A DNA stretch of 64,000 bases from Rickettsia bellii RML369-C. Its GTDB lineage: Bacteria > Pseudomonadota > Alphaproteobacteria > Rickettsiales > Rickettsiaceae. The DNA lies in contig NC_007940.1 of assembly GCF_000012385.1 (NCBI RefSeq), positions 1,458,077 to 1,522,076 of the forward strand. Direction: 5' to 3'. Below, in pieces: positions 16,533 to 30,059 of this stretch (position 1 is its first letter; every line of letters begins with the position of its first letter). The notes under the pieces are model-generated. The model saw only the letters and a list, made by a program, of their open reading frames with translations. It had not been told where the DNA came from and did not search any database. A program made the position numbers and the translations under genes.

Positions 16533-16554
16533 TATAATATACGTATAATATACG
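16533..16554 (+). promoter_or_regulatory. Tandem TATAATATACG repeat at the toxin-antitoxin promoter
   Basis: Two perfect, directly adjoining copies of TATAATATACG (16533-16543 and 16544-16554) contain consensus -10 hexamers (TATAAT) and end 14 bases before the antitoxin ATG. A tandem site at this place is what a self-repressing antitoxin would bind. The promoter role is likely; the operator role is inference. Confidence 0.5.
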
Positions 16555-16568
16555 TGCAAGGTGAATAT

Positions 16569-16799
16569 ATGCAAAAAAAATTAACCATTTCTATAGACGA
16601 AGCTGTTTACCGCAATTTATATTCAGTAATTGGCGAAGGTAAAATTAGTAAATTTATAGAAAATATCATCAAACCATACTTAATTAATGAACAGCTTAAA
16701 GCATCTTATGAAGAAATGGCTCAAGATGAAAAGAGAGAAAAAGAGGCAAATGAATGGATAGAAGGGCTAATTCAGGACGATTTTAATGAAAAGAGGTGA
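16569..16799 (+). CDS. Antitoxin of a MazF/PemK-type pair
   Basis: A 76-residue acidic protein (MQKKLTISIDEAVYRNLYSV) with an N-terminal beta strand followed by helices, as in ribbon-helix-helix repressors, and a Glu-rich C-terminal tail to bind the toxin. I chose ATG 16569 because AAGGTG lies 5 bases upstream; a GTG at 16554 is in frame but lacks such a site. The stop overlaps the start of the toxin gene by 14 bases, the usual coupling of such modules. It probably represses its own promoter through the tandem repeat upstream. Confidence 0.8.
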   Translation: MQKKLTISIDEAVYRNLYSVIGEGKISKFIENIIKPYLINEQLKASYEEMAQDEKREKEANEWIEGLIQDDFNEKR

Positions 16800-17112
16800 A
16801 ATATGGTGGGTAAATTTTGATCCTTCCGTTGGGGGAGAAATAAATAAAATAAGACCTGCAATAATTATTAGTAATGATGCAGCAAATGAAGTATTAAATC
16901 GTATCCAAGTTATACCTTTAACCAGTAATGTAAGTAAATGTTACCCTTGGGAAGTTTATGTAATTGTAAATGGTAAACAAAGTAAAGCCATGACGGATCA
17001 AATAATGACAGCAAGTAAATTAAGGTTAAAATCTAAAATTTCTACAATAACCAGTCAAGAGATGCTATCACTTGAATATGCTTTAAAACTTCAATTAGGT
17101 ATATATTTATAG
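16786..17112 (+). CDS. MazF/PemK-family mRNA interferase toxin
   Basis: A 108-residue endoribonuclease-type toxin. The N-terminus MKRGEIWWVNFDPSVGGEINKIRPAIIIS is the family signature (GEIWWV, then RPAIIIS), with VIPLTSN and the DQIMTASKLRL strand following. Length and motifs are complete, so the pair appears functional. MazF enzymes cut single-stranded mRNA at short sequences; the target here cannot be predicted. It is one of two intact toxin-antitoxin pairs in the window. Confidence 0.9.
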   Translation: MKRGEIWWVNFDPSVGGEINKIRPAIIISNDAANEVLNRIQVIPLTSNVSKCYPWEVYVIVNGKQSKAMTDQIMTASKLRLKSKISTITSQEMLSLEYALKLQLGIYL

Positions 17113-17175
17113 TAAATTAAAGAGTTGTCTTATTGTCATTACTGCGTAAGGCTTGCCCCGCATGGATCAGTTTCC

Positions 17176-17286
17176 CGTCATTGCGAGCGACTGCAAGGAG
17201 CGTGGCAATCCAGAAAAAATAATAAAAATGCTATGCATTTTACTAGATTGCTTCGTCAAAACTTATAGTTTTTCCTCGCAATTACG
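17176..17286. repeat. Palindromic repeat (CGTCATTGCGAG family)
   Basis: Opens with CGTCATTGCGAGCGA and closes with TTTTTCCTCGCAATTACG, an imperfect inverted repeat around AGATTGCTTCGTCAAAA. The same family occurs at 19951-20040, 20359-20455, 30060-30173 and within 44985-45200. Confidence 0.75.
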
Positions 17287-17335
17287 ATATCTATACTTAG
17301 TTAGGAATGCTAACCACGCTCAATTCACTTACCGA

Positions 17336-17363
17336 TTGACTTTTTTAGGAAATGGAATATAAA
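17336..17363 (+). promoter_or_regulatory. Promoter of structured RNA element A
   Basis: TTGACT at 17336-17341, a 16-base spacer and TATAAA at 17358-17363. The related element B has TTGACT, exactly 16 bases and TAGAAT in the same place (29333-29360), which supports both as real sigma-70 promoters. Confidence 0.7.
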
Positions 17364-17369
17364 ATTGTG

Positions 17370-17626
17370 TTTAAAATAGTTAAAGCTATTTCGGGGTTTC
17401 AAAGCCTCTTTGCTATTATGGTATATGCATCAGCCATAAAATGGTGCAATCCTCAATACTTATGGTTGGGGATGATAATAGACATGTCCAGAGCTTAAAG
17501 TACTAACTTTAGGCTTAAAATCTATTGTAAACTGTTAGTAGCGGTTTCTTTGAACTCCCCAACCACCATGAATGTTTTGTGGTGGTTAAAACTTGAGCAA
17601 ATTAAGTTTATATTCAGCGGGGACAC
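17370..17626 (+). ncRNA. Structured RNA element A (leader or small RNA; related to 29367-29616)
   Basis: Predicted transcript of about 220-255 nt. Stems seen: AAATAG/CTATTT at 17374/17386; TATGG/CCATA in 17417-17440; ATAATAG/CTATTGT at 17475/17522; AGCTTAAAG/CTTTAGGCT at 17492/17507. Four segments can pair in exclusive ways: W (17449-17456) with X (17464-17473), X GGTTGGGG (17464-17471) with Y CCCCAACC (17557-17564), and Y' AACCACCA (17561-17568) with Z TGGTGGTT (17580-17587). Copy B keeps all of these with compensatory changes. Homology continues up to the ATG at 17627. No U-run follows the Y':Z hairpin, so it is not a standard terminator. I know no named family that fits. Confidence 0.7.
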
Positions 17627-18134
17627 ATGCTTAATACAAAAAAAATAATAATCTTCCTTATATACTCGTTGAACTTGAAAAATTGGCTACGTCGTCTAAC
17701 AAGTTCTGCGGTACTCACGTATTAAGTATACGCTCCGTTCCTCGTCTTGTTGTCTCCTTGCTCTTTTCCAAGTTGAACTTCGTATATTAAATCTTTATCA
17801 CTGTCAGCAAAATAATTTCCAAACATCAAAAATTATAGAGCAAAATTCATTCCATCATACTACTATACGTAAATTAATCGATGAAATAAAAAATGAGCCT
17901 AAAGGGACTTTTACTATTCTAATTGAGGATATAATACTAAACGATCCAAATAGTATAATTTTTACTTCAAGCCTTGGCACTTTATATTTGCTTGGGTTTA
18001 TTCATACAGAAATATATAAAAAATCTTTCCAAGAGATAAAATTATATGATGGAATAAACGCAAAAAATGATTTTTTAAGTATAGCAGATTTTTGCCTATA
18101 CTATAATTTGGCATGTTATAGAAACATAGAATAA
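17627..18134 (+). pseudogene. Small unknown gene after RNA element A, interrupted by a palindromic repeat
   Basis: An ATG at 17627, in the same position relative to the RNA as the gene at 29617, begins MLNTKKIIIFLI and runs straight into a palindromic repeat (17661-17788), where the frame meets a TAA. Behind the repeat, in another frame, 17805-18134 is open and reads QQNNFQTSKIIEQNSFHH and on to ILIEDIILNDPNSIIFTS, ending CYRNIE. Its pattern (T-IR-L, then ILI-D, then IIF-S-L--L-L) loosely resembles the second half of the 29617 product. The two are therefore possibly related genes, this one broken. Function unknown. Confidence 0.45.
17661..17788. repeat. Palindromic repeat inserted in a small gene
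   Basis: Minus-strand copy of the element at 13605: begins TATACTCGTTGAACTTGAAA and ends TCCAAGTTGAACTTCGTATA, inverted termini. It splits the reading frame at 17627-18134. Confidence 0.8.
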
Positions 18135-18209
18135 ATTATTTAGTCAACATATTGTTGACTAGTATTATAAGCTATAATATAATAAAATTAACTTATAAAT
18201 AATTCTCAA

Positions 18210-18470
18210 ATGGAATATACTCTTTGCTTTTCTAAAACTTCCTTAAAAAATTTGGTCAAAATTTTTGCAAATAAAAGAAAGGTTATATTAGAAAAATTAG
18301 AACAGCTAAGATTAGACCCTTATAAAACAAATAATAATATTAAAAAGTTAATAGGATACGATGCTTATAGGCTAAGAGTTGGAGACTATCGAGTTATATA
18401 TAAAATAAACCAAGGAAGATTAGAGATTTTAGTAATAAATATTGATGTTAGAGGAGAGGTATATAAATGA
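18210..18470 (+). CDS. RelE/ParE-family toxin
   Basis: An 86-residue toxin of the RelE fold. Basic helices (KRKVILEKLEQLRLDPYK) are followed by the strand motif YRLRVGDYRVIYKI, the family signature. RelE proteins cleave mRNA in the ribosomal A site, ParE proteins poison gyrase; the sequence alone does not decide. Toxin precedes antitoxin, as in HigBA-type modules, and the two overlap by ATGA. A broken paralogue with nearly the same core is at 35895-36049. Confidence 0.85.
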   Translation: MEYTLCFSKTSLKNLVKIFANKRKVILEKLEQLRLDPYKTNNNIKKLIGYDAYRLRVGDYRVIYKINQGRLEILVINIDVRGEVYK

Positions 18471-18829
18471 GCGATAAACATATAATAGAGTATCAAGGAA
18501 AACCAGCTTTTGTTGTTCTACCCTTTAATGAATATCAAGAGCTTATAAACTTTAAGAAACGTCACATTACCGATGAAGAATTATATCTTGAGGGAATTGC
18601 TAAAAATGAAGAATATTTTCCTGAAGAATTAGTGCAGAAAATTCTAAGCGGCGAAAATCCTATCAAGGTTTATCGTGAATATAGAGGGCTTTCCCAAGAA
18701 CAATTAGCTACTAAAATTGGTAAAACTAAACAATATATTTCTGCTATTGAAAAAGGATCACGTACCGGTACAATAGATACATTAAAGAAGCTAAGCACTG
18801 TTCTAAATATAGATTTGGATATGCTGTAA
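18467..18829 (+). CDS. XRE-family antitoxin
   Basis: A 120-residue DNA-binding antitoxin translated from the ATGA overlap with the RelE-type toxin. The N-terminal half (IIEYQGKPAFVVLPFNEYQEL) resembles a Phd/YefM-like toxin-binding strand-helix. The C-terminal half is a helix-turn-helix of the Xre/Cro type (GLSQEQLATKIGKTKQYISAIEKG, about residues 77-100). It should neutralise the toxin and repress the operon. Confidence 0.85.
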   Translation: MSDKHIIEYQGKPAFVVLPFNEYQELINFKKRHITDEELYLEGIAKNEEYFPEELVQKILSGENPIKVYREYRGLSQEQLATKIGKTKQYISAIEKGSRTGTIDTLKKLSTVLNIDLDML

Positions 18830-29212: not shown

Positions 29213-29332
29213 ATAAATCAATTTGTTATTTATAACCATATTGTACAATTCGTACTAATATTTGTCAAGGCTATTGTAAGTTACGCTTATATAAAGGGGG
29301 CTATTTTGTATAACAAAGTCTACAAAATCAGA

Positions 29333-29360
29333 TTGACTTATTTAAAGTTTTGCCTAGAAT
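29333..29360 (+). promoter_or_regulatory. Promoter of structured RNA element B
   Basis: TTGACT at 29333-29338, a 16-base spacer and TAGAAT at 29355-29360, in the same place and spacing as at element A (17336-17363). Confidence 0.7.
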
Positions 29361-29366
29361 CTTTTT

Positions 29367-29616
29367 GAAGCAGCTAAAGGCTGCTTTGGGGTGTCGAAAC
29401 CTCACGCCAATATGGTTGTATCTACCATAAACGATACGCCCTCAACTTTATTAGGGTTGGGGTGATAATAGCGTATGTCCAGGGTTTAAGGTGTAAATCT
29501 TAAACCTAAAGGCTATTATAGACTGTTATTGGCGGTTTTTCGAACTCCCCAACCACCATAAAATATTTTGTGGTGGTTAACACTTAAATAATTTAAGCTA
29601 GGAGAACTAAGCCGTT
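29367..29616 (+). ncRNA. Structured RNA element B (leader or small RNA; related to 17370-17626)
   Basis: Stems: AAGCAGC/GCTGCTT at 29368/29380 with the same TAAAG loop as in A but different paired bases; TATGGT/ACCATA around 29411-29428; ATAATAG/CTATTAT at 29465/29513; GGGTTTAAG/CTTAAACCT at 29482/29499; AGACTG/CGGTTT at 29520/29533. Exclusive pairings: W CCTCAAC (29440-29446) with GTTGGGG (29456-29462); X GGTTGGGG (29455-29462) with Y CCCCAACC (29547-29554); Y' AACCACCA (29551-29558) with Z TGGTGGTT (29571-29578). AGGAG at 29600-29604 precedes the gene start at 29617, so the element may be its 5' leader. Confidence 0.7.
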
Positions 29617-30033
29617 ATGAACAATATTGTAGAAAAAAGAGTAACCCTCATTGAGCCATATTTAGATTTTATCATTAGAAATGAAGAATTAATGCGTGAA
29701 ATTTATCCAAATGGCTTGGATAGGGATTTAATGATAGAATTTATTTTAGCTAAGAAACCTTATAAATCTTATGCTTATTATACTCTAATTCGTAGTTTAT
29801 TCAAATCGCCATGCAATAAAATTATACTTATAATTGATAAGCAACTTTTAAAATCTTTCTTAGGTTTATTCCGCTCTATTATCTTTGGTACTTTATCATA
29901 TCTCAAGTTAATTAAAATTTTCATCTATGATGAGAATGACTTTGCTCTAGATATAAAAGCCTTAAAAAGCAATGAAAATTACTTCTGGTCTTATAAAATT
30001 AATTACTTTAAAAAGCTGATTAATGGAGAGTGA
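29617..30033 (+). CDS. Unknown protein encoded directly after RNA element B
   Basis: 138 residues (MNNIVEKRVTLIEPYLDFII) that I do not recognise. The N-terminal third is helical and charged (RNEELMREIYPNGLDRDLMI). The middle has alternating hydrophobic and basic residues (NKIILIIDKQLLKSFLGLFR, SIIFGTLSYLKLIKIFIYD) without a clear membrane helix. There is no signal peptide. AGGAG lies 12 bases before the ATG. Its constant position after a conserved RNA suggests the RNA controls it, or that the two form one module. The equivalent gene at 17627 is broken. Confidence 0.5.
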   Translation: MNNIVEKRVTLIEPYLDFIIRNEELMREIYPNGLDRDLMIEFILAKKPYKSYAYYTLIRSLFKSPCNKIILIIDKQLLKSFLGLFRSIIFGTLSYLKLIKIFIYDENDFALDIKALKSNENYFWSYKINYFKKLINGE

Positions 30034-30059
30034 TTAGTTTTGCCTGCATGGATCGAGAG

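Follow-up and report, generated by a model that had tools for sequence, protein, structure and literature searches.

Element A of Rickettsia bellii, a conserved 5′ leader with a C4-like layout and a probable antisense function

The systems closest to element A, a structured RNA at positions 17336 to 17626 of a 64,000-nt stretch of Rickettsia bellii RML369-C (NC_007940.1, positions 1,458,077 to 1,522,076 of a genome of 1,522,076 bases; this stretch is called the window), are the C4 antisense RNA of phages P1 and P7 (RF01695, with c4-a1b1, RF03163), the small RNA (sRNA) family sRNA-Xcc1 (RF02221) and the C4-like Group 1 sRNAs of Acinetobacter baumannii. In the record of phage P1, a promoter is followed by a1, b1, C4, a2, b2 and icd. 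Within C4, segment a (CTGTCAA) comes after hairpin P3 and before the closing stem's 3′ strand, and segment b occupies the P3 loop; the 5′ end of C4 is annotated at the initial G of GGTGGGG, following TAT. According to the respective papers, the A. baumannii RNAs carry segments a′ and b′ and a GGW motif at which RNase P cuts them (PMC5320573), sRNA-Xcc1 is an RNA of about 100 nt on Northern blots (PMC2996969) located upstream of symE and associated with integron cassettes (PMC12444791), and seven copies of it occur in Xylella, with C4 and isrK close by in one strain (PMC12189769); related literature is further found in PMC2864571 and PMC8201110. sRNA-Xcc1 has no clan in Rfam. In full-text searches of open-licence PubMed Central, one paper was found to name C4 antisense RNA together with sRNA-Xcc1, and none to name it together with Rickettsia or Alphaproteobacteria.

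Element A is genuine: a predicted regulatory RNA under strong conservation, located at the head of a prophage integration operon. As read from the aligned copies, its body of about 105 nt, which extends from segment X to segment Y, contains two segments, a and b, that match the upstream segments a1 and b1 in a copy-specific manner, and X can pair with either W or Y (Table 1). The leader is probably a C4-type antisense leader providing copy-specific self-control or immunity. C4-type antisense control would thereby be placed in Alphaproteobacteria, and for obligate intracellular bacteria the leader turns prophage immunity by RNA into a question open to experiment.

Structure and conservation of the leader

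The sequence-only reading of the window had described a sigma-70 promoter followed by a stem-rich RNA in which W:X plus Y:Z competes with X:Y. The promoter with its spacing of 16 nt was confirmed by direct reading, and a pattern scan called the same place as TTGACT-18-TAAAAT with a score of 10/12; TTGAC and an AT-rich −10 region recur among the aligned copies. The stem-rich character was borne out as well: folding of positions 17366 to 17640 yielded −86.5 kcal/mol compared with −59.6 kcal/mol (standard deviation (sd) 4.6) for shuffled sequences (z −5.83), and none of 200 shuffles was as good.

For the structure statistics, 96 copies were aligned to R1, a covariance model based on 55 genus copies. 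In the first state, which includes W:X, Y:Z and a pseudoknot, 93.5% of the cells were paired, compared with 81.6% after shuffling of the 3′ letters and 37-50% after a shift of 1-3 columns; two-sided changes were found in 59 of 69 pairs, with 40.3 expected from shuffling. W:X was paired in 96.0% of the cells, with two-sided changes in five of eight pairs. The exclusive pairing X:Y, which is absent from the model used to build the alignment, was paired in 97.5% of its cells, with two-sided changes in six of eight pairs. All four segments lie where the sequence-only reading had placed them, and both of their arrangements are conserved with two-sided changes. The two helices of the pseudoknot (helices 3 and 4), which across the aligned copies read UGG:CCA and GCAUC:GAUGC, were paired in 91.3% and 93.5% of the cells, with two-sided changes in eight of eight pairs. 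Segment a1 can either form the loop of a local hairpin, whose GGGG:CCUC stem was paired in 94.5% of the cells with weak covariation (three of four pairs), or pair together with the preceding GGGG with Y and a (helix 2, 93.3%). The stem of hairpin P7 is weak as aligned (75.4% paired).

Y:Z is indeed not followed by a U-run. The terminator scan found its sole terminator-like site at the a1 hairpin and none at Y:Z. The terminator hairpin with a U-run that an attenuator based on intrinsic termination would have after its switching helices was not found. A shared downstream pathway, as expected of a riboswitch, was not found among ten downstream proteins, which belong to several unrelated families, some of them to no clear one. 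The attenuator- or riboswitch-like interpretation originally proposed is thus partly supported.

By blastn, copies resembling element A were detected in R. bellii and in 20 of the 22 remaining Rickettsia genomes; 35 genomes of other genera yielded none. With R1, 12 matches were obtained in the R. bellii genome, and 22 of the 23 genomes of the genus were matched. The covariance-model search of Rickettsiales genomes suggested in the sequence-only reading showed the family to be present in 97 of 343 genomes of the order (49 of 134 genera). Moreover, R1 matched 46 of 385 genomes of the class sample (40 of 277 genera) and nine of 299 genomes of the phylum sample, all nine within its own class. Element B, which had been named together with element A, is a second copy of the same structured 5′ leader.

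Copy-specific complementarity and relation to C4 and sRNA-Xcc1

The match of a1 to a and of b1 to b in the X-Y body is far better within than between copies. Among the 96 copies, complementarity of b1:b, a pairing included in no model, amounted to 7.29 compared with 4.62 (sd 0.10) in 200 between-copy swaps. For a1:a the values were 6.37 and 3.99 (sd 0.10), a result that leans towards pairing because a1:a was part of the alignment model. In 59 copies of the genus, from which copies more than 92% alike had been removed beforehand, 42 distinct (a,b) types were counted. The retained copies all differ in type in 19 of 20 genomes, trivially so in four genomes with one copy, and the variety within genomes is overstated because near-identical copies were removed (L003/L004 and L005/L006 are same-type pairs). 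Four copies of the genus (L022, L128, L129 and L148) combine b1 of one type with b of another; a is also lost in two of them and in others. Judging by these segments, the four copies look like recombinants between copies.

The layout of the leader corresponds to that of C4 in phages P1 and P7. Both have a promoter, a1 and b1 upstream with a and b in the body, a closing stem starting with TAT and then GGU/GGT, followed by P2, the P3 loop with b, segment a and the 3′ strand, and a small open reading frame (ORF) with a phage gene behind it. A 5′ motif of the GGW type is present in the leader, where X begins with GGT in 31 of 40 copies, with GAT in five and with GGC in four; the body ends with CCA in 31 of 40. 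In contrast to C4, the leader has no a2/b2 at the start codon or ribosome site, it possesses a longer P5/P6 with an internal loop, an additional pseudoknot and segment W, it remains below the Rfam cut-off, and it heads an integrase operon instead of an antirepressor operon. The best leader score with RF01695 was reached by L217 alone (23.5 bits, E 2.4; cut-off 45 bits). Compared by description, the A. baumannii Group 1 sRNAs resemble the leader in being multi-copy RNAs with a variable a′ and processing from longer transcripts at GGW, which for the leader is a prediction, and differ in that their upstream Region 1 is described without an assigned role (PMC5320573).

Searches with Rfam at its cut-offs identified tRNAs alone in the window, and up to E 10 nothing credible was found in 17100-17900 and no RF02221 match in the window. 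In class relatives of the leader, a lax scan with RF02221 matched four of seven loci (E up to 1) and nine of ten loci (E up to 10), the ten having been chosen partly from the earlier seven-locus result. Sub-cut-off matches were obtained in nine of 12 distinct loci, all at the X-Y segment and on the same strand, with scores of 23.6-36.6 bits (best 36.6 bits, E 0.005; cut-off 53 bits). RF02221 was present in 50 of 299 genomes of the phylum sample, 35 of them over the cut-off, and was found neither in the R. bellii genome nor in any of 14 control genomes. Conversely, R2, a covariance model of the X-Y body from 40 copies, recovered eight of 30 sRNA-Xcc1 loci with nine matches, all at the annotated place (E 8.8e-7 to 0.26, two below 0.001).

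In these 30 loci (L219-L248), C4-type a1/b1 precede the body, and a2/b2 are located where the following ORF starts. Upstream, a1 complementarity of at least 8 was found in 22 of 30 loci (swapped mean 3.3, maximum 9) and b1 complementarity of at least 7 in 27 (9.7, maximum 20); downstream, a2 reached at least 7 in 12 of 30 (3.8, maximum 9) and b2 at least 7 in 18 (4.6, maximum 9). sRNA-Xcc1, known as a trans-acting integron sRNA, thus gains a likely mechanism, with C4-type targets both ahead of the body and over the ribosome site. It shares with the leader the closing helix (X:Y), a hairpin with an internal loop, a third hairpin (P3) at the same place, upstream GGGG-a1 and b1, and body models that partly recover each other's members; it differs by a2/b2, which the leader copies do not have, and by the 53-bit cut-off, below which the leader stays. 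The earlier statement that no named family fits holds as far as Rfam cut-offs are concerned, but the body is related to sRNA-Xcc1 and the layout is that of C4. The leader was assigned neither to C4 nor to sRNA-Xcc1 because a second target pair is missing and its scores stay below the cut-offs of both families.

Proposed mechanism and competing explanations

Elements A and B are best understood as candidate 5′ leaders of a prophage integration operon consisting of leader, small serine-recombinase-like ORF and large serine integrase. This order is found in three copies (L075-L077) of one genome of the genus, in which the small protein is assigned by its database name to the Rickettsia endosymbiont of Ceutorhynchus obstrictus. 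The surroundings of these copies are prophage-like by PHROGs (exonuclease, Sak4-like, RuvC-like, tape measure, integrase); one of the three integrases is open over 518 aa and the other two are broken. In 29 of 29 further loci, the start of an ORF of at least 50 codons was located between −19 and +68 nt relative to the end of the model, within a search confined to −20 to +100. In the uncut leader, a1:a, b1:b, W:X and Y:Z would keep the body in an inactive fold. The X:Y state would form a tRNA-acceptor-like stem (5′ GGU, 3′ ACCA) that RNase P may cut before X, a position chosen because of the annotated 5′ end of C4 in phage P1. The released body would act in trans as an antisense RNA, with a1/b1 of sibling leaders of matching specificity as its targets, the binding would change the leader fold and lower the expression of the ORFs behind it, and the outcome would be self-control together with immunity between prophages of the same type.

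As an alternative, the copies could be decayed scars of prophages whose RNA has no present role in R. bellii. Most other copies of the genus have the small ORF or its remains and no adjoining integrase, which is also absent from most copies in the R. bellii genome; the small ORF is broken in the window, and integrase fragments are dispersed over 22 of 23 genomes. Against such decay, 21 of 31 copies that lack an ORF of at least 100 codons retain both complementarities, the threshold being reached by 3.2% of swapped pairs on average (maximum 10.2%), as do 17 of 17 copies with such an ORF; 11 of 11 undecided copies retain them too. We consider this explanation doubtful.

It is unlikely that the leader is a purely cis-acting translational or riboswitch-like switch, in which a1:a and b1:b would serve as tertiary contacts of a single fold and the choice between its two states, W:X/Y:Z and X:Y, would fall to a metabolite or protein. 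Such a switch would agree with the position directly ahead of the ORF start, with the tandem leader pairs before a single, lipoprotein-like ORF observed at L188, L190 and L192, with the conserved pseudoknot and AUGUCCA loop, with the lack of a2/b2 and with the diversity of the downstream genes. On the other hand, few parts of the leader vary as much as a and b, and their complementarity is nevertheless kept, therefore RNA-RNA recognition fits better than a fixed fold; furthermore, the body is related to sRNA-Xcc1, an RNA detected by Northern blotting (PMC2996969), and the downstream genes have no common pathway. A guide or bridge RNA for the adjoining large serine integrase is very improbable despite the location in the integrase operon, as the same leader precedes unrelated genes, it was absent, at E up to 1, from all 11 viral contigs that have related integrases, and a1/b1 already account for the variable segments.

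Several results weigh against the C4-type antisense leader that we prefer. Besides the inclusion of a1:a in the alignment model, the leader reaches no Rfam cut-off, R1 recovers none of the 30 sRNA-Xcc1 loci, and R2 finds nothing in 50 kb of P1 containing C4. No a2/b2 signal was detected near the start codon in 59 genus copies (b 5.87 versus 5.84, a 4.94 versus 5.02) and 37 other copies (b 5.94 versus 5.76, a 4.86 versus 4.73); single loci, e.g. L214 and L216, have a downstream 7-nt match to a. In ten of the 31 copies without a 100-codon ORF, complementarity of a or b no longer reaches the chosen threshold. Finally, outside the bacterial family the leader precedes other genes, and the ten proteins compared include a sodium:solute symporter, N6 methylase, DUF4268, PhyH, glycosyltransferase and outer-membrane barrel; immunity alone does not explain this diversity.

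A tentative extension of the C4-type reading is that orphan leaders form a bank in Rickettsia genomes, in which each leader with its own a/b specificity might confer inherited RNA immunity to prophages of the same type. A matching body RNA might be sensed and switch W:X/Y:Z to the tRNA-like X:Y for RNase P.

Features of the window and neighbouring genes

Table 1. Parts of elements A and B and of their adjoining ORFs, in window positions.
Feature	Position	Strand	Basis or remark
Promoter-like; TTGACT 17336-17341, 16 nt, TATAAA 17358-17363	17336..17363	+	read directly
Element A, full leader model (243 positions)	17369..17611	+	R1 match 209.1 bits, E 2.8e-58 in window
Hairpin P1, 17373-17380 with 17385-17392	17373..17392	+	helix 1, 95.9% paired, two-sided changes in 8/8 pairs
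GGGG - a1 - CCTC; a1 = TTCAAAG 17398-17404	17393..17408	+	two alternative pairings
b1 (TTGCTATTA), partner P7 loop	17410..17418	+	within-copy versus swapped-copy complementarity
Pseudoknot; UGG 17419-17421 with CCA 17434-17436, GCATC 17427-17431 with GGTGC 17443-17447	17419..17447	+	
W = CCTCAAT	17451..17457	+	helix 5
C4-like body, X to Y end; 5′ GGU, 3′ ACCA	17464..17568	+	R2 match 17461-17568, 76.4 bits, E 1.4e-14
X (GGTTGGGG)	17464..17471	+	X:Y pairing; putative RNase P cut before 17464
Hairpin P5 + P6, conserved AUGUCCA internal loop	17477..17526	+	helices 6 and 7
Hairpin P7; b = TAGTAGC 17536-17542 in loop	17530..17546	+	helix 8
a = CTTTGAA, partner a1	17548..17554	+	
Y (CCCCAACCACCA)	17557..17568	+	
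Z (TGGTGGTT)	17580..17587	+	
Terminal hairpin T	17590..17608	+	helix 10, 91.7% paired
Shine-Dalgarno-like CGGGGA, ahead of ATG 17627	17618..17623	+	read in sequence
Remnant small recombinase-like ORF, broken	17627..18137	+	N-terminal piece from ATG 17627; later piece 17799-18137, one stop
Element B, second leader copy	29363..29601	+	R1 215.8 bits; R2 29452-29558, 95.8 bits
Small recombinase-like ORF after element B, open, 138 aa	29617..30033	+	

The last base of the element A stretch directly precedes the ATG of the remnant ORF. This ORF is interrupted by a stretch at 17650-17800 that resembles a Rickettsia palindromic element. A unit of about 750 bp comprising leader and small ORF was observed at four sites (L080, L081, L083 and window 29315-30056), with a common 3′ end just past the ORF. 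Short matches to the integrase C-terminus (RERDSNPRYSLTR; L076 5985 and other integrase ends) recur; this C-terminus resembles peptides that result from reading into a tRNA gene, which would presumably place the attachment site in a tRNA gene. By eye, element A is flanked by two toxin-antitoxin-like gene pairs at 16554-17112 and 18210-18829, the former with a MazF-like ORF (16786-17112) and the latter with a RelE-like ORF (18210-18470) followed by an Xre-like ORF.
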